From Pseudomonadota bacterium (lineage in GTDB: Bacteria; Pseudomonadota; Gammaproteobacteria; Burkholderiales; Casimicrobiaceae), in the NCBI GenBank assembly GCA_021784125.1, contig JAJXTF010000010.1, positions 1 to 34,068 of the forward strand: a stretch of DNA of 34,068 nucleotides, in the 5' to 3' direction. Shown piece after piece: positions 8,032 through 24,941 of this stretch. Numbering within the stretch: the stretch's first letter is position 1; each line of letters begins with the position of its first letter. Made by a program: the position numbers and the translations under genes. Under the pieces are notes generated by a model, which did not search any database, was not told the DNA's origin, and was given only the letters and a program-made list of their open reading frames with translations.

Positions 8032-8639
8032 GCTGCGGCCTCCGGCGTCGGACGCATGATGATCAGGTGGCGCCGGGCGTCGAGCCCCGGCACGTCGAGC
8101 GCCGGCTCGGCGACGACCGCGACGCTGCGCGGCAGCTGCGCGATTTCATCGCTCGGATGCGCGCCTTTCATCGCGACGAGGATGCCCTGCGGCGCGACGA
8201 GCCGGCGCGCACCGCGCACGAAGCTCGCGAGGTCCGAGAATGCCCGCGAGACGACGACGTCGAATGCTGCCGCGGGCACGTAGTCCTCGACGCGCGACGC
8301 GACCGCCTCGACATTGGCGAGCTCGAGCTCGATCGCCGCCTGCGTGAGGAACGCGACCTTCTTCTGGTTCGCATCGAGCAGCACGACGCGCCATCCGGGT
8401 CGGGCGATCGCGATCGGTATTCCCGGCACGCCCGCGCCGGTGCCGACGTCGAGCACGCGCAATGCGGGTGCGTCGGGCAGGTGCGGAAGGATCGCGAGCG
8501 CATCGTTCAGATGGTGCGTCACCATGCTGGGGCGATCGCGGATCGCCGTCAGGTTGAAGGTCCTGTTCCATTTGACGAGCAGGTCGAGGTAGGCGTCGAG
8601 CTTGCGCAGCGCATCGGCGGGCAACGGCGCGGCCGTCAT
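8028..8639 (-). CDS. rsmG: 16S rRNA (guanine-527 N7) methyltransferase RsmG
   Basis: Rossmann-fold methyltransferase that uses S-adenosylmethionine to methylate G527 of 16S rRNA. It has 203 residues. The S-adenosylmethionine-binding loop [10 protein letters not shown] spans 64-73, preceded by the family-typical [12 protein letters not shown] (22-33) and followed by [13 protein letters not shown]. The start overlaps the mnmG stop as ATGA and the stop overlaps the TTG start of parA, the standard mnmG-rsmG-parA-parB arrangement. The frame stays open upstream into mnmG, but that part is out-of-frame mnmG sequence. Confidence 0.96.
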
Positions 8640-10522
8640 GCGGAGCGCTTCGCCAAGCCGCGCTTCAGGTGCACCAGCAGCAGCGAGATCGCCGCCGGCG
8701 TCACGCCCGAGATGCGCGCGGCCTGGCCCAGCGTTTCGGGCCGATGCACGCTGAGCTTCTGCTGCACCTCGATCGACAGGCCGCGAACCTGGCAGTAGTC
8801 GATCCCGGCCGGGAGGCGCGCCTCCTCGTGCTCGCGCTGGCGCGAGATCTCGATCTGCTGGCGCTCGATGTACCCGTGATACTTGGTCGTGATCTCGACC
8901 TGCTCGGCGACGACCGCGTCGTCGACCGGCTTGCCGGCGCCTTCGAGCGCGTGCAGCGCGTGGTAGGTGACGCCGGGGCGCCGCAGCAGGTCCGCGAGCG
9001 CGTAGTCGCGCTCGATCGGTTGTCCCAGCACGCGCTCCGCATCGTGGCGGGCGACCACCTGCGGGCTCACGTACGTCGACTTGATCCGCTCCAGTTCCTG
9101 CGCGATCGCGTCGCGCTTGCGGCAAAAGGCCTCCCAGCGCGCGTCGTCGACGACGCCGAGTCTGCGCCCCTGCTCGGTCAGACGCAGGTCGGCGTTGTCC
9201 TCGCGCAGTTGCAGCCGGTATTCCGCGCGCGAGGTGAACATGCGGTAAGGCTCTGATACACCGCGTGTAATCAGGTCATCCACCAGCACGCCCAGGTACG
9301 CTTCGTCGCGCCGCGGGCACCAGCCTTCGAGGCCCGCGGCGTGGCGCGCGGCGTTGATGCCGGCAAGGATCCCCTGGGCCGCGGCTTCCTCGTAGCCGGT
9401 CGTGCCGTTGATCTGGCCGGCGAAGAACAGCCCGGCGATCGCCTTGGTCTCCAGGGTCATGCGCAGGCCCCGTGGATCGAAGTAATCGTATTCGATCGAG
9501 TAGCCGGGGCGCAGGATGTGCGCGTTCTCGCAGCCGGGGATCGACCGGACCAGCGCGAGCTGTACATCGAACGGCAGGGACGTCGAGATGCCATTCGGAT
9601 AAATCTCTTGTGTATCAAGGCCTTCCGGCTCGAGAAAGATCTGGTGCGAGTCGCGCGAGGCGAAACGCACGACCTTGTCCTCGATCGACGGGCAGTAGCG
9701 CGGCCCGACGCCCTTGATGACGCCCGTGAACAGCGGCGAGCGATCGAGCCCGCCGCGGATGATCTCGTGGGTACGCGGCGTCGTGTGCGTGATCCAGCAG
9801 GGGAGCTGCCGCGGATGCAGGTCGCGGCCGCCCATGAACGAGAACACCGGCGCCGGATCGTCGCCCGGCTGGACCGCCAGCCCCGCGAAGTCGATCGTGC
9901 GCCCGTCGAGACGTGGAGGCGTCCCGGTCTTCAGCCGTCCGGCAGGCAGTTTCAGCTCCCGCAGCCGGGCACCCAGGCGCTTGGCGGGTGGATCTCCCGC
10001 CCGCCCCGCCTCGTACTGCTCGAGCCCCACGTGGATCAGGCCGGAAAGGAAGGTTCCCGTCGTCAGGACCACTGCGTCGGCCTCGAACTCCAGCCCGATC
10101 TGGGTCACCACCCCCGCCACCCGGTCCCCGTCGATCAGCAGGTCGTCGACCGGCTGCTGGAACAGCGTGAGCCCCGGCGCCGTTTCCAGGCGGTGCCGGA
10201 TCGCCCGGCGGTAGAGCACACGGTCGGCCTGCGCCCGCGTCGCGCGCACAGCCGGGCCCTTGCTGGCGTTGAGGATCCTGAACTGGATGCCGGCCTCGTC
10301 GGTCGCGAGCGCCATCGCCCCACCCAGGGCGTCCAGCTCCTTCACCAGATGGCCCTTGCCGATGCCACCGATCGACGGGTTGCAGGACATCTGGCCCAGC
10401 GTCTCGAGATTGTGCGTCAGCAGCAGCGTGCTCCGCCCCGCCCGCGCGGAGGCGAGTGCAGCCTCGGTGCCGGCATGGCCGCCACCAACGACAATCACAT
10501 CGAAACGTCGATCGAATTTCAT
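8636..10522 (-). CDS. mnmG: tRNA uridine-34 5-carboxymethylaminomethyl modification enzyme MnmG (GidA)
   Basis: FAD-dependent subunit that, with MnmE, installs the (carboxymethyl)aminomethyl group on wobble U34 of several tRNAs. It has 628 residues (E. coli 629). The FAD-binding motif GGGHAG is at 13-18 and the conserved [12 protein letters not shown] at 46-57; the C-terminal helical domain contains [12 protein letters not shown]. Its partner mnmE is also in the window, about 4.7 kb away on the same strand. The ATG follows an AT-rich stretch (TTTATTGATTTTAA) with no Shine-Dalgarno sequence, which may suit it as the first gene of its operon. A possible -10 (TAGAAT) about 50 bases upstream lacks a convincing -35. 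Confidence 0.97.
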
Positions 10523-10635
10523 TTAAAATCAATAAATTGTGAGCTGACCGATCTGGGCGGCTGCAGTTTGCCATTCTACAGCATCCGTCGCCCCCTCATC
10601 AGGCCGAGGCGACCATCCGCCCGCCGAGACGCCGG

Positions 10636-10651
10636 TGTTTCACGTGAAACA
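10636..10651. promoter_or_regulatory. parS centromere site 1
   Basis: TGTTTCACGTGAAACA, a perfect 16-bp palindrome identical to the universal chromosomal parS consensus bound by ParB. It lies 114 bases upstream of mnmG and about 3.5 kb from parB. ParB binding here should load clamps that spread over the mnmG-parB operon and could influence mnmG expression (inference). Confidence 0.97.
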
Positions 10652-10798
10652 ACGGGCGTCGCGCCTGGCCCGATCACGGCAATGCAGCCGCCCGCGATTT
10701 CGTCGCTGCCGCCGCCGGGTCGTCGGCGATTTCGGGCTCTGCCCCGGGGCGATTCGCGCGCCGCCGGGAAGGCGGTGCCCCAGCGGGCGGTCAATGCC

Positions 10799-10814
10799 TG
10801 TTTCACGTGAAACA
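10799..10814. promoter_or_regulatory. parS centromere site 2
   Basis: A second perfect TGTTTCACGTGAAACA, starting 163 bases after the start of site 1. Two identical sites close to oriC strengthen the assignment of this region as the chromosome's centromere. Confidence 0.97.
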
Positions 10815-11553
10815 AGCGGGAGGCCGGCGCACGCCGCTGTCCCGGCTTCAGGCGCCAGAACCCGCCGAAGCGGCCGTAGCGATTCCACGATGCCCCCACC
10901 GGACTCCTGACTGCCGAGGGCGTCGCAGGCAACGAGCCCCCCTCCCGGTCCGCGTCGCGCCGCCCGCGGCAACCATTGGTGATCGCGCCAAGCATCCGGC
11001 CCTCGCGCGCTTCGCTCGATTGGGCCGCCGCGGCGGGCAATGCCCGCTTTCGCCGGCGCCGGGTGGCCGGTGCCCGGCATTCCGCCATTCCGGCAGGCAG
11101 CGTCCCGGTGCCGGCGGCGCGGGCTTCCCGCCTGGGCGCGCGTGCCGCAAGTGCGCGCAACGCTCGACCCGCTGATCCTGGCATTGGACCGGGACGGGCG
11201 CTGGAACGCCTTCATCCGAACGACCGAGTCGGTGGCGCCGATTCCACCCACCGCCTGGGCCGCCGTTCGGGTCGGGCCACGCTTCGCGTTCCGGGCCGTG
11301 CGTCGGTCGCGCCCAGGCCAGCGGGGCAGCGCGGCGCCCCCTCGTCGAGGTGAATTGCGACCTCGACCCCCCGGCATCTGGCGGGCTGGCGGGAAAGCGG
11401 CAATTGTGGCGACCGCAGCGGTGATCGGCATCCGACCATGGGCCCGGCGGCAAAGCGCGCAGGGGCTGCGGCGCGGGGCACGCCCGGCAAAGCGGCCCGG
11501 CAGCGGCCCAGCCGTGGTCACGCGGCCGGAATCCCTGAAACCGGCTATCCGGG

Positions 11554-11596
11554 CTCTCCTGTAAAACAATAATTATTACATGGCGTTACAAGAGAG
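11554..11596. repeat. AT-rich inverted repeat downstream of pckG
   Basis: CTCTCCTGTAA (11554-11564) and TTACAAGAGAG (11586-11596) are inverted copies that match at ten of eleven positions, enclosing 21 bases that contain the perfect palindrome AATAATTATT. The right arm ends eight bases beyond the pckG stop. The region is strikingly AT-rich for this genome. It may act as a terminator for pckG, an operator, or a scar of a mobile element; the sequence does not decide. Confidence 0.6.
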
Positions 11597-11603
11597 TGAG
11601 CGC

Positions 11604-13451
<1,848 letters not shown>

Positions 13452-13496
13452 TGAATGTCGGCGCGCCGTTGGCGCCGCGCTGCGGATGGGTTGAAA

Positions 13497-13525
13497 ACTC
13501 TAGCACGCGAAGCGGCGTGGCTGAA
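13497..13525 (-). promoter_or_regulatory. Possible pckG promoter
   Basis: On the minus strand TTCAGC (-35, 13520-13525) and TAGAGT (-10, 13497-13502) are 17 bases apart, about 45 bases upstream of the pckG ATG. Both hexamers match the sigma-70 consensus only partly. Confidence 0.3.
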
Positions 13526-13560
13526 GCGGCAGATCCGATGCGCCGGCCCGCAGGCTGCCG

Positions 13561-13589
13561 TTCCCGGCGGCGCCTTGCGCGCCCGGGAA
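13561..13589. repeat. Hairpin-forming inverted repeat in the pckG/DUF1326 divergent region
   Basis: TTCCCGG pairs with CCGGGAA; inside, after a two-base mismatch, GCGC pairs with GCGC around a three-base CTT loop, giving 11 paired positions of 13. It is the first of two neighbouring hairpins. Confidence 0.55.
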
Positions 13590-13619
13590 AGCCGGAGTAC
13601 GGTATCCGCAAGCAACACC

Positions 13620-13649
13620 CCTGCAGCGACGCGCCTGCGTTGCTGCAGG
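13620..13649. repeat. Long hairpin upstream of the DUF1326 gene
   Basis: CCTGCAGCGACGC and GCGTTGCTGCAGG form a 13-bp stem with a single G-T wobble and a four-base loop (GCCT). It lies 72 bases before the DUF1326 ATG. There is no U-run, so it is more likely a leader-RNA structure or a protein-binding site than a terminator. Confidence 0.65.
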
Positions 13650-13721
13650 CGTTTCGGCGCATCCTCGCCTTCGGGGCCGCGGCGACGCGCGCAATCCCGT
13701 CAATCCACGGAAGGGGGTTTC

Positions 13722-14336
13722 ATGGCCAGCTGGCGAATCGAAGGTCAGTACATGGAGACCTGCAACTGCGACTACCTCTGCCCGTGCGCACCGTCGCATC
13801 TCACCGCGCGGCCCACCGAAGGTGATTGCAAGGCGGCATTGGCGATGCGCATCGACAAGGGCGAGAAGGACGGCGTGATGCTCGACGGCCTGTCGTTCGT
13901 CGTGGTCCTGCATTCGCCCGGCGCCATGGCCGACGGCAACATGACGATCGGCCTGATCGTCGACGAGCGCGCCTCCGCCGCGCAGACCGACGCGATCGCC
14001 GCCATTGCCACCGGCGCGGCGGGTGGCCCGATGGCGGCGCTGGGTCCCCTGGTCGGCCGCGTGGCCGGCGTCGAGAAGTGCCCGATTCGCTTCGAGGCCG
14101 CGGGGATGACCTTCGCCGTGAAAGCCGGCGAACTCATCGACCAGGCGTGCGAGGGCGTTGCCGGCGCAGTGCGTACGGACGAGCCGCTCCACATCGACAA
14201 CACCGCGCACCCGGTGAATTCCCGCCTGGCGCTCGCGAAGGCCACGCGCAGTGTCTTCAACGCGTTCGGGATCAAGTGGAACGATACGAGCGGCAGGCGC
14301 AACGGCCACTTCGCTCCGTTCGCGTGGGCCGGATAG
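13722..14336 (+). CDS. DUF1326 domain-containing protein
   Basis: A 204-residue protein of the DUF1326 family, whose function is unknown. The N-terminal motif CNCDYLCPC (Cys14, 16, 20, 22) is its most conserved feature and looks like a metal or redox-active thiol site; Cys36 and Cys120 are further candidates. The C-terminal half carries LHIDNTAHPVNSRLALAKA, also family-typical. There is no signal peptide or membrane segment, so it should be cytoplasmic. The ATG is preceded by AAGGGGG. The downstream DUF2182 gene probably starts inside its last codons, a coupling that implies a joint role. The frame is open upstream to 13455, but without a start that fits the family. Confidence 0.9.
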   Translation: MASWRIEGQYMETCNCDYLCPCAPSHLTARPTEGDCKAALAMRIDKGEKDGVMLDGLSFVVVLHSPGAMADGNMTIGLIVDERASAAQTDAIAAIATGAAGGPMAALGPLVGRVAGVEKCPIRFEAAGMTFAVKAGELIDQACEGVAGAVRTDEPLHIDNTAHPVNSRLALAKATRSVFNAFGIKWNDTSGRRNGHFAPFAWAG

Positions 14337-15154
14337 GAACGCAGTCGGCGCTCGACCGCGGCATCGACGCCACGCTGCGCCACGACCGCTGGATCGCCCT
14401 CGGCGGCCTCGCCGGGGTGGTCGTCGTCGCGTGGCTCTATCTCTGGTACACCGCGACCGGCACGGATCAGGCCTCGATGTCGATGCCGGCGATGCCCGGG
14501 ATGCCGGCAATGTCAGGGATGCCTTCGCCACCCCGCGCCACCGATGCCGCCGCGTTCACCCTGGCGCTCGTCATGTGGACCGTGATGATGGCGGGCATGA
14601 TGCTGCCCAGCGCCACACCGACCGTCCTGCTGTACGGGGCGATCGTGCGCAAGAACGGCGCGCGCGGCACCGTGCTCCCGGGTGTCTGGATCTTCGCCAG
14701 CGCGTACCTCCTGGTCTGGGCCGGCTTCAGCGTGGCGGCGACCGTGTTGCAGACACTGCTCGAGCGCGCCTCGCTGCTGACACCGACACTGGCTGCGGCG
14801 AGCAACCGCGCCGCCGCGCTCGCCCTGATCGTCGCGGGCGTGTATCAGCTGACCCCCCTCAAGCGGTCCTGCCTCGCCAGGTGCAGGAATCCGCTCGAGT
14901 TCTTCATGACCCGCTGGCGCGCAGGGCCGGGCGGCGCGTTCAGGATGGGCCTCGAGCACGGTGCCTACTGCGTCGGCTGCTGCTGGGCGCTGATGATGCT
15001 GCTCTTCGTGGCCGGCGTCATGAACCTCGCGTGGGTGGCGCTGATCGCCGCATTCGTCTTCGTCGAGAAGTTGTTTCCCGCGGTCCGCCTCGTCTCGCCG
15101 CTCGCGAGCGCCGCGCTGATCGTCGCCGGACTCTTCCTGCTCGCGCGAGCGTAG
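14324..15154 (+). CDS. DUF2182 predicted metal-binding integral membrane protein
   Basis: A 276-residue membrane protein of the DUF2182/COG5486 family. Hydrophobic segments lie near residues 24-42, 77-95, 118-142, 163-178, 214-234, 236-250 and 258-274. The family signature MMAGMMLPSATPTVLLY (88-104) is present, as are the Cys motifs KRSCLARC (180-187) and YCVGCCW (215-221). After the first membrane segment comes a Met-rich stretch, residues 51-68, with six Met, reminiscent of copper-binding loops. The GTG at 14324, overlapping the end of the DUF1326 gene by 13 bases, is the best available start but has no clear ribosome binding site. Function is unknown; metal handling is inferred. Confidence 0.85.
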   Translation: MGRIGTQSALDRGIDATLRHDRWIALGGLAGVVVVAWLYLWYTATGTDQASMSMPAMPGMPAMSGMPSPPRATDAAAFTLALVMWTVMMAGMMLPSATPTVLLYGAIVRKNGARGTVLPGVWIFASAYLLVWAGFSVAATVLQTLLERASLLTPTLAAASNRAAALALIVAGVYQLTPLKRSCLARCRNPLEFFMTRWRAGPGGAFRMGLEHGAYCVGCCWALMMLLFVAGVMNLAWVALIAAFVFVEKLFPAVRLVSPLASAALIVAGLFLLARA

Positions 15155-15242
15155 GCGCGGCGTCCGGCAACCCGGACGTGACGATGGCGCAGCCAAACGC
15201 GCGTCCGATCGTCGCGCGGCGCCCGCGCCCGCGAGAGGCCGG

Positions 15243-16625
15243 CTATTTTCCGATGCAGAAGCGCGAGAAGATCTCGCCCAGCAGATCGTCGGCGGTGAAT
15301 TCGCCGGTGACCGTCGACAAAGCCTGTTGTGCGGCGCGCAACTCCTCGGCGAAGAGCTCGATCGCAGGCGGTCGGATGGCGGCGTGCTCGCCCGCCATGG
15401 ACAGGTGCGCCGCGGCGGCGGCCAGCGCGCTCACCTGGCGCTCGCGCGCGAGGAACACGTCCTCCGTGGCGTGCTCGGCACCCGCGATGCGCAGCATCTG
15501 CGCTTCGAGCGCTGCGATCCCCTCGCCGGTCAGCGCGGACACCCACGCCTCCACGACGCCGTCGTCGCGACGATCGACGTGCGCCGCCGTGCCCGCGAGG
15601 TCGCACTTGTTGCGCACGATGATCCGCGGCAGCGCTGCCTGGAGCTCGCCGGCGAGCGGCGTGTCCGCGCGCGGTTCGCGTGGGTCGCGCGCATCGGTCA
15701 GCACCAGTGCCAAGTCGGCGCGCGCGATGGCCGCGCGCGTGCGCGCAATTCCGAGCGCCTCGACGGTGTCGGTGGTCTCGCGCAGGCCGGCGGTGTCGAT
15801 GATGGTCAGCGGGATGCCGGCGAGCTCGATCGGTCGCTCGATGGTGTCGCGCGTCGTACCCGGGATCGGCGTCACGATCGCGGCCTCGTCGCCGACGAGG
15901 CGGTTCAGCAGGCTCGACTTGCCCACGTTCGGCGCCCCGACCAGCACGACGGCGAGGCCGTCGCGAAGGATCGCGCCGCGGCGCGACCGCGCGAGGATGA
16001 CGGACAGTCGCTCGCGTATGGCGGCGACCCGCGCAAGCACGTCGCCTTCGCGCAGGAACTCGACGTCCTCTTCCGGAAAATCGAGCGTCGCCTCGGTGTA
16101 CATGCGCAGCTCGATCAGCGCGTCGCGCAGCGCATGCACTTCCGCCGAGAATTCACCGGTGAGGCTGCGTGCCGCGGCGCGCACGGCGGCGGTCGTCGAG
16201 GCGTCGATGACGTCGGCCACGCTCTCGGCTTGCGCCAGGTCGAGCTTGCCGTTCAGGAATGCGCGCTTGGTGAACTCGCCCGGTTCGGCGAGCCTCGCAC
16301 CGAGCTCGATGCAGCGCGCGAGCAGCAGTCGCATGACGGCGGGGCCGCCGTGCCCCTGCCATTCGACGACGCTCTCGCCGGTGTAGGAATGCGGCCCGGG
16401 GAAATGGAGCGCCAGCCCGGTGTCGATCGGCGCGCCCTGCGCGTCGCGGAACGTGACGCGGGTCGCGATCCGCGGCGGCAGCGTGCGGCCGGCGATGCCT
16501 TCGATCAGCGCCGCGATGTCGTTGCCGGACACGCGGACGATGCCCACGCCGCCGCGCCCGGGGGGCGTGGCGATCGCGGCAATCGGTTGCGTGACGGGCT
16601 GGGCGATGGGGCGCGGCGCATCCAT
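15243..16625 (-). CDS. mnmE: tRNA modification GTPase MnmE (TrmE)
   Basis: GTPase partner of MnmG in making the (carboxymethyl)aminomethyl modification of wobble U34. It has 460 residues (E. coli 454). The N-terminal folate-binding domain includes GRGGVGIVRVSG (23-34); the inserted G domain has G1 GAPNVGKS (230-237), G3 DTAGLRET (277-284) and G4 NKCD; the C-terminus is the catalytic FCIGK (456-460). The ATG at 16625 matches the family start better than the in-frame TTG at 16655. It is last in the rpmH-rnpA-yidD-yidC-mnmE series, 32 bases after yidC. Confidence 0.97.
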   Translation of the reverse strand: MDAPRPIAQPVTQPIAAIATPPGRGGVGIVRVSGNDIAALIEGIAGRTLPPRIATRVTFRDAQGAPIDTGLALHFPGPHSYTGESVVEWQGHGGPAVMRLLLARCIELGARLAEPGEFTKRAFLNGKLDLAQAESVADVIDASTTAAVRAAARSLTGEFSAEVHALRDALIELRMYTEATLDFPEEDVEFLREGDVLARVAAIRERLSVILARSRRGAILRDGLAVVLVGAPNVGKSSLLNRLVGDEAAIVTPIPGTTRDTIERPIELAGIPLTIIDTAGLRETTDTVEALGIARTRAAIARADLALVLTDARDPREPRADTPLAGELQAALPRIIVRNKCDLAGTAAHVDRRDDGVVEAWVSALTGEGIAALEAQMLRIAGAEHATEDVFLARERQVSALAAAAAHLSMAGEHAAIRPPAIELFAEELRAAQQALSTVTGEFTADDLLGEIFSRFCIGK

Positions 16626-16657
16626 GCGCGCGAGCTTACCGCGCCCGACTGGCAACG

Positions 16658-18394
16658 CTAGCGCCGCCTGGCCGCGGCCTGCTCGGTCTCGCGCGTCAGC
16701 ATCCGGTTAACGTGCCATTGCTGCGCGATCTGCAGCAGGTTGTTGACCAGCCAGTAGAGGACGAGGCCCGACGGGAAGAACAGGAACATGATCGAGAACG
16801 CGACCGGCATGATCTGCATGACCTTCGCCTGCACCGGATCGGAGATCGGCGTCGGCGACAGCCGCACCTGCAGGTACGCGGTGATCGCGTAGATGACCGG
16901 CAGCACGAACCACGGATCCGGGGCGGAAAGGTCCTGGATCCAGCCGATCCAGGGGGCGTGGCGAAGCTCGACGGCCGACAGCAGCACCCAGTACAGTCCC
17001 ATGAACACGGGGATCTGCACGACGATGGGCAGGCACCCGCCCAGCGGGTTGATCTTCTCCTGCTTGTAGAGCTCCATCATCTTGATCTGGAGCTGCTGCT
17101 TGTCGTTCGCGTACTGCTCCTGCAGCACCTTCATCTTCGGCGCGACGAGCTTCATCTTCGCCATCGACCGCGCCGACGTGGCGTTCAGCGGATAGAACAC
17201 GCCCTTGATCATGATGGTCATCACGATGATGGCGAAGCCCCAGTTGCCGATCAGCCGATGCAGGAACTTGAGCAGCAGGAACAGCGGTTCGGCGATGATC
17301 GTGAAGATGCCGTAGTCGACGACGAGGTTCAGGCCCGGCGCGAGCTTGGACAGCGCCTCCTGGTCCTGCGGACCGGCATACAGGCTCGCGCGGATCACGC
17401 CGGTCGCGCCGGGCGCAATCGTGCCTTCGGCGTAGCGGACACCGGCCGTGTACAGGCCGTTGCCGAGCCTGGTCGTGTAGAACCTGCGCTCGATCTTCGG
17501 CGTCTCCGGCGGGAGCCACGCGACGACGAAGTAGTGCTCGACCATGCCGATCCAGCCGTTGTCGGTGACGTTCGTGTACGGCGGCTTGCGGCTGGGATCG
17601 GCGGCGTCCTTGTCGATCTCGGCGAAATCGATCTTCTTGTACTTGTCCTTGTCGTCGTAGACGACGGGGCCGACGTAGGGCTTCGGGCCCATCCGGGTCT
17701 GCACGCCCACCTGCTTGATGTCGCGCATCAGCTGGAAGTACGCCTCGGGCTTGATCGGCGCGGTGCCCGCGTTCGTGACGTCGAAGGCGACGTCGATCAC
17801 GTAGCTGCCGCGGTGGAAGGTCAGCGTCTGCACGACCTTGTCGCCGTTGGGCGCGGTCGCCTGCAGCTTCAGGTCGAAATGATCGGCGCCCGCGGGCAGC
17901 GACCGGGGTCCCGGCAGGACTTCATAGGGCGTGCGGTGATTGGGAAGCCCGTCGCCGATCAATCCCGCCTGGGCGACGAAGGTCCGGTCGGCGTTGTGCA
18001 GCAGAACGTAGTACGGCTTGGATTTGTCCTCGGCGTCGCGCTGTTTCTTGAGGGCCACCTGCGTGATCGTTCCGCCGACGGTGTCGATTTCCGCCGCGAA
18101 CATGTCGGTGTGGATCTCGATCGCCTGGCCCGCGGGGACGGCGGCGCCACCCGGAACCGCAGCAGCAGTCGGCGTCCCCGCCGCGGCCCCCGGACCCGAA
18201 GGAATCGCGCCCGCTCCGGACGCCCCCGGCGTCGCGCCCGGAACGGCGGGCGCCGCCCCCTGGCCGGCCGCCGGCGCAGCCGACTGCGTCGTCGGTACCG
18301 GAATCGGGGGATTGTGCTCGCGCTCCCACGCCTGCCAGAGCAACACCGAGGAAAAGGAAAAGACCAGCCAGAGGATCAGGCGTTGGATGTCCAT
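16658..18394 (-). CDS. yidC: Membrane protein insertase YidC
   Basis: Inserts and folds inner-membrane proteins alone or with SecYEG; the ATP synthase c subunit is a classical client. It has 578 residues, with an N-terminal membrane anchor (5-22), an Ala/Pro/Gly-rich linker (about 28-85), a large periplasmic beta-sandwich domain (about 90-350) and the conserved five-helix insertase core, starting around VDYGIFTIIAEPLFLLLKFL and including IMIKGVFYPLNATSARSMAKM. The tail is short and basic (AAARRR). It follows yidD by 99 bases. Confidence 0.97.
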   Translation of the reverse strand: MDIQRLILWLVFSFSSVLLWQAWEREHNPPIPVPTTQSAAPAAGQGAAPAVPGATPGASGAGAIPSGPGAAAGTPTAAAVPGGAAVPAGQAIEIHTDMFAAEIDTVGGTITQVALKKQRDAEDKSKPYYVLLHNADRTFVAQAGLIGDGLPNHRTPYEVLPGPRSLPAGADHFDLKLQATAPNGDKVVQTLTFHRGSYVIDVAFDVTNAGTAPIKPEAYFQLMRDIKQVGVQTRMGPKPYVGPVVYDDKDKYKKIDFAEIDKDAADPSRKPPYTNVTDNGWIGMVEHYFVVAWLPPETPKIERRFYTTRLGNGLYTAGVRYAEGTIAPGATGVIRASLYAGPQDQEALSKLAPGLNLVVDYGIFTIIAEPLFLLLKFLHRLIGNWGFAIIVMTIMIKGVFYPLNATSARSMAKMKLVAPKMKVLQEQYANDKQQLQIKMMELYKQEKINPLGGCLPIVVQIPVFMGLYWVLLSAVELRHAPWIGWIQDLSAPDPWFVLPVIYAITAYLQVRLSPTPISDPVQAKVMQIMPVAFSIMFLFFPSGLVLYWLVNNLLQIAQQWHVNRMLTRETEQAAARRR

Positions 18395-19500: not shown

Positions 19501-19522
19501 CTCGATTTGACGCGGCTACAAT
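19494..19522 (+). promoter_or_regulatory. Candidate dnaA promoter
   Basis: TGGATA (-35, 19494-19499, four of six) and TACAAT (-10, 19517-19522, five of six) with a 17-base spacer. The -35 lies inside the DnaA box. Transcription would begin about 75 bases before the GTG start chosen for dnaA and excludes the TTG at 19507 as a start. Confidence 0.55.
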
Positions 19523-19602
19523 GCCTCCCCGGTCAGAACTCGTGCAAGAAAGCGCGCGGCCGGTCTTCCCGCGATCCGATACCTTCGACCGGCATTCTCC
19601 GC

Positions 19603-21135
19603 GTGCATTCCGCTTCTCCTTCCGTTTCCCATTCCGCTGTCTGGGCCGCCTGCCTCTCGGTTTTCGAACGGGAGCTGACGCCCCAGCAATTCTCCACCTG
19701 GATCAAGCCTTTAGCCTGCGCCGACGCACCGGGCAAGCTGCGGCTGGTCGCGCCCAACCGCTTCGTACTGCAGTGGGTCAAGGACCGGTTCGGGGGTCGA
19801 ATCGAGGCGCTGGCCCGCGAGTCCATTGGCAAGGATGTCGCCGTCGAATTCGCCGTCGCGGAGGCCGGAACCACGACCCCGCCGAGCGCGCCCCGATCTG
19901 CCGCGGGGCCTTTGCCGGTGGACAACGCGGGCGACATCGCAGACCATGCCGCGCCGGCAACGTCAGGCGCTCCGGGAACGCCGACGGCCCCTTCCCCTGC
20001 GCCGGCCACCCCGGCATCGGCTCCGACCGCGATGCCCGCCCGCGACCGGACCGTCTCGGGCAGCCAACCCTCGATCGGGCCTTTCGCGATCAAGCCGGGC
20101 GGACATCGCCGGGTGGAGCCCGGCGGCCTCAACCCCGGATTCACGTTCCAGGCCTTCGTCGCCGGCAAAGCCAACCAGTTGGCCCGCGCGGCAGGCCTGC
20201 AGGTGGCCGAGCACCCGACGTCCTACAACCCCCTGTTCGTCTACGGCGGCGTGGGCCTGGGCAAGACGCACCTCATCCAGGCGATCGCCCACCAGTTGCT
20301 GCTGCAGAATCCGGAAGCCAAGATCCGCTACATCCACGCCGAAACCTACGTTTCCGACGTGGTACGGGCCTACCAGCACAAGGCCTTCGACGACTTCAAG
20401 CGCCATTACCGCTCGCTCGATCTGCTGCTGATCGACGACATCCAGTTCTTCGGCGGGAAGAACCGCACCCAGGAAGAGTTCTTCTACCTGTTCAACACGC
20501 TGATCGAGGCACATCGCCAGGTCGTCATCACCTGCGACACCTTCCCCAAGGAAATCGAAGGCATCGAGGAGCGACTGATCTCGCGCTTCGGCTGGGGACT
20601 GACCGTGGCGCTCGAGCCTCCCGAGCTCGAGATGCGCGTCGCCATCCTGCTGTCCAAGGCGGCTTCCGTCGGCGTGCGCCTGGACGAGCAGGTGGCCTTC
20701 TTCATCGCCAAGCACATCCGCAGCAACGTGCGCGAGCTCGAAGGCGCGCTGAAGCGCATCCTCGCCTACGTGAGCTTCCACGGCCAGGAGATCACGCTGG
20801 CGACGACCAAGGAGGCCCTGCGCGACCTGCTGGCCGTGCAGAACCGCCAGATCTCGATCGACAACATCCAGAAGACGGTGGCCGACTACTACAAGGTGCG
20901 CATCTCGGACATGCACTCCAAGAAGCGGTCCCGGGCCGTCGCGCGGCCCCGCCAGGTCGCCATGGCGCTGGCCAAGGAACTCACGCAACTGTCCCTGCCC
21001 GAGATCGGCAGCAACTTCGGAGGCCGCGACCACACGACGGTGCTGCACGCCTGCCGCCAGATCGCGAAGCTCCGCGACTCGATGCCGGAGCTCAATCACG
21101 ACGTCAATTTCCTGCTCCAGGTCCTCCGCAGCTGA
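19603..21135 (+). CDS. dnaA: Chromosomal replication initiator protein DnaA
   Basis: AAA+ ATPase that binds DnaA boxes at oriC, opens the duplex and loads the helicase. From the GTG at 19603 it has 510 residues. Domain I is at about 13-80 ([20 protein letters not shown]); domain II is a long Ala/Pro-rich linker (about 85-165). The AAA+ domain has Walker [10 protein letters not shown] (215-223) and Walker [10 protein letters not shown] (274-282); domain IV has the DnaA-box-binding signature [13 protein letters not shown] (475-487). The start is uncertain: there is no in-frame ATG, the TTG at 19507 falls within the promoter, and GTG 19603 lacks a clear ribosome binding site. Confidence 0.97.

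Positions 21136-21384: not shown

Positions 21385-24941
<3,557 letters not shown>

Follow-up and report, generated by a model that had tools for sequence, protein, structure and literature searches.

The locus considered here raises the question of what two overlapping genes, one for a small soluble protein with paired cysteines near its N-terminus and one for a membrane protein with methionine- and cysteine-rich segments, accomplish together. The window, i.e. the whole stretch of 34,068 nucleotides that was analyzed, represents a chromosome-origin region, as searches placed dnaA at 19507-21135, dnaN at 21385-22488, mnmG at 8636-10522 and the gene of the ATP synthase delta subunit at 1088-1624. 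Around the pair (window 8636-18394) lie further genes which, from reading of the sequence, we take to be yidC, mnmE and a GTP-type PEP carboxykinase gene. The pair is encoded on the strand opposite to the surrounding genes and appears to be transcribed as a unit of its own; between 13400 and 15300, no promoter-like site was found and one terminator-like site was detected, compared to 0.9 expected by chance. Searches for tRNA genes and Rfam families gave no match within the window, and NCBIfam and PADLOC yielded no meaningful match for the pair. The relevant features are as follows.

13701 to 13721, plus strand: AAGGGGG, a putative ribosome-binding site 5' of the DUF1326 gene, read from the sequence
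13722 to 14336, plus strand: DUF1326 gene (PF07040), ATG start, 204 aa, product presumed cytosolic
13761 to 13787, plus strand: CxC-x3-CxC motif, CNCDYLCPC, codons 14-22 (C14, C16, C20, C22), read from the sequence
14324 to 14336, plus strand: 13-base overlap of the DUF1326 and PpoB2 reading frames, read from the sequence
14324 to 15154, plus strand: DUF2182/PpoB2 gene (PF09948), 276 aa, putative GTG start
14477 to 14521, plus strand: six-Met loop after helix 1 (M52, M54, M57, M60, M63, M66), read from the sequence, its composition kept more than its positions
14576 to 14608, plus strand: helix-2 motif W85-xx-M88-M89-xx-M92-M93-x-P95 in a predicted membrane helix, from the alignment
14870 to 14884, plus strand: C183-x3-C187 in a basic, presumably cytoplasmic loop
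14969 to 14983, plus strand: C216-x2-C219-C220 in the predicted helix 201-230

The soluble protein belongs to DUF1326 (PF07040; E 1.3e-51, 175.7 bits against a cut-off of 25, positions 1-174 of 177) and the membrane protein to DUF2182 (PF09948; E 2.3e-64, 217.2 bits against a cut-off of 28.7, positions 1-187 of 188). Both families had originally been described as lacking an established function, which holds for the uncharacterized DUF1326, as a literature search by this term returned nothing on function, but not for DUF2182, whose Pfam entry is named 'PpoB2, Copper chaperone'. Its founder, PpoB2 of Marinomonas mediterranea (ppoB1-ppoB2), is reported to be involved in the specific transfer of copper to tyrosinase PpoB1 (PMC2855505), and the window gene is a clear member of this PF09948 family (COG5486). 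Family name and founder role together lend support to the copper handling envisaged in the original prediction. Hence, the assignment of PpoB2 to copper is already known, and what is new is its coupling to the uncharacterized, Cys-rich DUF1326.

This coupling is genuine and broadly distributed. A PpoB2 gene is located no more than 2 kb away from 41 of the 45 DUF1326 genes in 299 Pseudomonadota genomes, with DUF1326 being first in 24 of these pairs and PpoB2 in 17; the suggested coupling of the two genes is thus borne out by tight linkage. All 31 of these genomes with DUF1326 also carry PpoB2, and a PpoB2 match alone is found in six genomes, two of these matches being below the family cut-off. 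For 61 relatives, the corresponding numbers are 17 of 25 DUF1326 genes within 2 kb of PpoB2 and PpoB2 present in 18 of 19 DUF1326 genomes, the exception being a genome of 66% completeness. In 201 Chloroflexota genomes, 39 of 56 DUF1326 genes are located within 2.5 kb of PpoB2; both families occur in 31 genomes, DUF1326 alone in 6 and PpoB2 alone in 9. Of the 37 Chloroflexota genomes with DUF1326, the six without PpoB2 comprise four with matches below 50 bits, one with the gene at a contig edge and one real exception (G403, 153 bits). Likewise, when named loci were retrieved by DUF1326, 28 of 32 contained PpoB2 within the stretch, and each of the remaining four belongs to a genome with another complete pair. 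When 369 genomes of the window's class were searched with tyrosinase-linked PpoB2, 36 matched, and the 30 loci read from these contained DUF1326 (26), tyrosinase (2) or neither (2, one of them at a contig end). The hypergeometric probability (1.7e-36) ignores kinship. Divergent, convergent and swapped gene orders all occur, and the pair is found in Pseudomonadota (including the laboratory strain Cupriavidus necator H16), Chloroflexota, Actinomycetota and haloarchaea as well as on annotated plasmids of Halocatena, Natrinema, Rhodococcus, Streptomyces and Nocardioides. As to whether each gene often occurs without the other, DUF1326 is seldom found in a genome devoid of PpoB2, whereas PpoB2 is also encountered in the absence of DUF1326, in which case a different soluble partner often accompanies it. 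Because DUF1326 usually travels with a member of a copper-supplying family, it is probably the cytosolic copper partner of PpoB2.

What DUF1326 could contribute is indicated by its conserved residues. The CxC-x3-CxC motif noted earlier near the N-terminus (C14, C16, C20, C22) was confirmed and is kept in all 115 distinct DUF1326 matches of at least 40 bits, matches below this value having been dropped from the count. A fifth cysteine, C36, was absent from that earlier description; in an earlier set of aligned sequences, all five cysteines are present in 66 of 66, with no His conserved to 85% and no Lys among the positions conserved in at least 85%. Structure prediction gave a beta barrel (pLDDT 95.4, pTM 0.91). 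Foldseek related this model to 3bgt (E 8.2e-5), but the superposition is loose (TM 0.40, rmsd 12.6), whereas VIA matched it to 4jmd with a Z of 11.4 and an rmsd of 4.1 over 156 residues, its eleven top entries all being of acetoacetate decarboxylase type (Z 10.0-11.4). The predicted fold is therefore an acetoacetate-decarboxylase-like barrel, similar to that of acetoacetate decarboxylase and MppR; a sequence search against solved structures gave nothing for DUF1326. Acetoacetate decarboxylase depends on a conserved Schiff-base lysine. In contrast, DUF1326 displays an invariant Cys set and is about 40-60 residues shorter; as no Lys is conserved, it is, judged by its residue pattern, not an acetoacetate decarboxylase. 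The five cysteines probably form a cluster, since they are positioned at or near the ends of predicted strands 4-17 and 36-49 and in the intervening loop. A comparable arrangement of two CxC pairs close together exists in Enterococcus hirae CopY, a CxC...CxC protein reported to bind two Cu(I) per protomer in an S4-Cu2 cluster and, at the same sites, also Zn (PMC5772342). CopY, however, is a DNA-binding repressor, and no homology to DUF1326 is claimed.

The membrane partner is predicted to be helical with seven long helices (pLDDT 83.9). No PDB entry matched its model better than the helical background (best Z 6.2), and therefore any copper path through it is conjectural; for the same reason, the lack of a named transporter among these structure matches proves nothing. 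The sequence search against solved structures returned two chance-level matches only. In Pfam at E up to 1, PpoB2 is the sole family matched, with none to Ctr1, CcdA or DsbD, and no energy-coupling domain was matched. The six-Met segment originally emphasized is indeed present after helix 1 but turned out to be a variable part of the protein, as M60, M63 and M66 are kept in just 3-8% of 77 sequences, whereas the near-invariant methionines reside in helix 2 (W85-xx-M88-xxx-M92-M93-x-P). Across 168 PpoB2 sequences, in which one place is counted twice, W85 and M93 are found in all 168, M88 in 167 and M92 in 164. Ctr1 comprises three helices with an M-xxx-M motif in a membrane helix and cysteines on the cytoplasmic side, and operates without an ATPase. 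PpoB2 resembles it in these respects, i.e. M-xxx-M in a predicted membrane helix, Cys presumably toward the cytoplasm and no ATPase, as a works-like comparison only, differing in the lack of any family match and in the number of helices of the model (seven long ones versus three).

Both Cys clusters reported for the membrane protein, C183/C187 and C216/C219/C220, were recovered. According to the positive-inside rule, the C183/C187 loop is presumably cytoplasmic since it is the most basic loop of PpoB2, with charge being assessed by eye and not by a topology program; the Met loop would then face the periplasm. The N-terminus of DUF1326 displays no signal-like stretch, likewise judged by eye and not by a signal-peptide program, which together with the basic loop supports the earlier placement of the soluble partner on the cytoplasmic side.

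Our preferred explanation, to which we assign a probability of roughly 0.55, is that the pair constitutes a two-protein Cu(I)-handling module in which PpoB2 serves a cytosolic DUF1326 partner. From the features above, we infer copper binding by the pair, its topology, the ligand ladder, the direction of import, Cys clustering and a role of DUF1326 as acceptor or chaperone. PpoB2 in the inner membrane would relay Cu(I) through a succession of soft ligands: The ion would be caught first by the Met-rich periplasmic loop, pass via the helix-2 methionines M88/M92/M93 to the helix carrying C216/C219/C220, and next reach the cytoplasmic loop with C183/C187. There, the DUF1326 barrel may take up (or present) Cu(I) on a thiolate cluster of C14, C16, C20, C22 and C36. 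The inward direction is suggested because no partner read looks exported by eye, as tyrosinases, DUF899 proteins and redoxins all lack a signal-like start.

These other partners are informative in their own right. PpoB2 copies without DUF1326 adjoin genes of DUF899 (11 distinct sequences), tyrosinase (4) or Redoxin/AhpC-TSA proteins (2), and ten of the 168 have no recognized partner in the stretch read, some of these being located at contig ends. The window's genome itself contains a second PpoB2 gene directly downstream of a DUF899 gene (L129, G000:C144, 2620-3438 and 1922-2593, minus strand). The DUF899 protein of this locus carries a CATC motif; DUF899 adjoins PpoB2 in ten further cases, Chloroflexota included, and a CxxC is present at 11 of 11 loci. 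Mostly, DUF899 occurs without PpoB2, being over the cut-off in 45 of 299 genomes, in which three PpoB2 copies adjoin it. At the two redoxin loci (L199, 1887-2420; L201, 3431-3964), residue C216 is replaced by Ser in the neighboring PpoB2 copies.

The full set of five PpoB2 cysteines was found in 138 of 141 DUF1326-linked sequences (137 of 140 different places, since one Marinovum place, L217 and L240, was counted twice) compared to 0 of 17 with another recognized partner. Of the three sequences deviating from this, two come from incomplete frames. Identical sequences and those below 50 bits or 150 residues (140 residues for sequences added later) had been dropped. The ten copies without recognized partner, one of which (L211) has DUF1326 2.2 kb away, are left out of the 17; nine of them keep all five cysteines, and all seven of these whose genomes were searched for DUF1326 have it elsewhere, while the tenth (G531, a genome without DUF1326 match) keeps two. 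The Fisher probability (1e-16) ignores kinship. In a tree built by a quick method with one support value, three of three independent pairs point in the same direction (p 0.25). With only three independent switches, the association of the five-Cys set with a DUF1326 partner is suggestive, not proven. Four tyrosinase-linked copies, a comparison class which excludes the M. mediterranea PpoB2 sequence itself, contain three or four of these cysteines, whereas the window's PpoB2 with its DUF1326 partner has all five; the W-xx-M-xxx-MM of helix 2, in turn, is kept in the four copies as in the window's protein and is common to every partner class. A Met loop with at least two Met is present in 77 of 96 DUF1326-linked and 11 of 11 DUF899-linked proteins versus 0 of 2 in the tyrosinase class, and the loop is also poor in Met in the redoxin class. 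A search for tyrosinase (PF00264) in the window's genome (94.85% complete) gave no match, but this absence carries little weight because the same search matched none of 14 control genomes.

The survey of gene neighbors proposed along with the original prediction did not uncover any copper regulator or oxidase that recurs. From the 134 neighbors listed, 3 were left out and 131 scanned, and no copper family is among the 25 commonest of the 145 families; even the commonest have four occurrences or fewer. This tally is rough, as it relied on a home-made gene caller which mis-called some GC-rich loci. Clustering of the neighbors around the pair gave nothing general, and repeats stem mainly from related genera, i.e. 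Polaromonas loci and roseobacter dmdA loci. In the latter, roseobacter-type genomes (L217, L245, L161, L162, L165, L166) carry the pair by dmdA, encoding DMSP demethylase, and a gene for an acuI-like reductase; PpoB2 precedes DUF1326, and a regulator gene is oriented divergently. On Rhodococcus plasmid pRWAY03 (L231, 2476-7237), the pair lies near genes of a heavy-metal-associated domain protein and a heavy-metal P-type ATPase, and on pHG1 of C. necator H16 (L224, 4679-4906), the gene of a GDCCVxC-domain (seleno)protein is situated directly 3' of the pair. Moreover, in Marinovum, the fourth gene after DUF1326 encodes SBP56, described as a periplasmic, copper-dependent methanethiol oxidase with SCO1/SenC beside it (PMC5739008). 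As a general client of the pair, SBP56 was rejected, being present in 7 of 14 pair-bearing genomes examined, at none of those places near the pair; no SBP56 was found in the window's genome.

In favor of the copper module, we count the PpoB2 family role, the pair linkage, the kept Cys and Met ligands, the chemistry of CopY, the cytosolic-looking partners and the pRWAY03 context. Counted against it are the lack of a general copper-gene enrichment among the neighbors, the lack of a tyrosinase or SBP56 match in the window's genome, the small number of independent Cys-partner events, the poor Met loop of the tyrosinase and redoxin classes, the nine copies without recognized partner that have all five cysteines, the exception G403 and the lack of a clear structural relative of PpoB2. 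A wider proposal, which we advance tentatively and at less than even odds, would regard PpoB2 as the membrane core of a modular copper delivery system with an exchangeable cytosolic partner (tyrosinase, DUF1326, DUF899 or redoxin), its cysteines tuned to the partner and its Ctr1-like Met motif constant. Under this proposal, DUF1326 would establish a novel class of copper proteins of the cytosol, built on an acetoacetate-decarboxylase-like barrel, occurring in bacteria and haloarchaea and tied to DMSP demethylation in roseobacters. If the copper-module reading holds, a concrete function with specified residues could be tested for the widespread DUF1326 gene, and a copper step becomes conceivable for the roseobacter DMSP gene clusters containing the pair. 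To our knowledge, copper delivery to cytosolic proteins in bacteria is only thinly characterized, and the literature covered reports a role for one PpoB2 family member.

Among the alternatives, DUF1326 might itself be the client, i.e. a copper enzyme or protein loaded by PpoB2 as tyrosinase is, which amounts to the same pathway with a different end. That PpoB2 is placed similarly beside genes for tyrosinase, DUF899 proteins and redoxins points to several clients, the predicted DUF1326 fold is that of an enzyme family, and DUF1326 lies by dmdA in roseobacters. Oxidases, however, employ copper sites with His, unlike Cu(I) carriers, and DUF1326 offers invariant Cys as soft ligands, with His missing at the 85% level, which corresponds to a carrier pattern. 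As the complete PpoB2 Cys set beside DUF1326 also suits a thiolate hand-over, we consider this alternative unlikely.

The thiol exchange raised as an option in the original prediction fares less well than copper but stays in consideration, because two of the alternative partners, DUF899 with its CxxC and Redoxin/AhpC-TSA, look like thiol proteins. In such a relay, the PpoB2 cysteines, some of which are conserved in a predicted membrane helix, would carry reducing equivalents across the membrane with the cytosolic thiol protein as electron donor. This is rendered improbable by the missing CcdA or DsbD match, by the fact that the PpoB2 cysteines vary with the partner and the methionines do not, by the four tyrosinase loci read, which have no thiol protein directly beside PpoB2, and by the published role of PpoB2 in copper transfer (PMC2855505). 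Even less probable is an efflux, detoxification or storage function, in which DUF1326 would capture excess cytosolic Cu(I) for outward release by PpoB2: The founder serves enzyme supply (PMC2855505), and PpoB2 lacks a match to an energy-coupling domain. The metallothionein-like Cys motif of DUF1326 and the one plasmid on which the pair is found close to a heavy-metal P-type ATPase gene would fit this function, but no copper regulator or efflux family is among the 25 commonest neighbor families. Methionine ligands favor Cu(I), and the helix-2 Met motif is identical in the tyrosinase-linked and DUF1326-linked branches; that the latter falls outside the copper assignment and handles another soft metal or cluster (Zn, Hg, Fe-S) is thus highly improbable, despite the Zn bound by the CopY sites and the gene for a GDCCVxC protein adjoining the pair on pHG1.

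Regarding expression of the preferred copper module, the previously noted 13-base overlap of the two reading frames (14324-14336) was verified. No ribosome-binding-like site is seen by eye 5' of PpoB2, and this together with the overlapping frames fits translational coupling. In 16 same-strand relatives read, the codon at the overlap is ATG or GTG in 9 and CTG in 7; this codon pattern is consistent with a real overlapping start but falls short of proving selection for it, because the relatives were grouped partly by frame start, rendering the grouping partly circular. Compared to the nearest relative (L045, also the nearest named locus, DUF1326 91% identical), dN/dS amounts to about 0.12 for DUF1326 and 0.25 for PpoB2, and both genes are therefore under purifying selection. 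Judged by this nearest named locus, the host belongs to the betaproteobacteria. Elsewhere in the window's genome (L130, G000:C273, 6169-6384), a frame corresponding to the C-terminal part of PpoB2 only (HGLFCVGCCWALM) and devoid of the helix-2 Met motif represents either a remnant or a short form. Additionally, second DUF1326 genes, in tandem or flanking, occur at L044 (4329-4964), L216 and L185, with the one at L044 displaying 31% identity and retaining the Cys motif.
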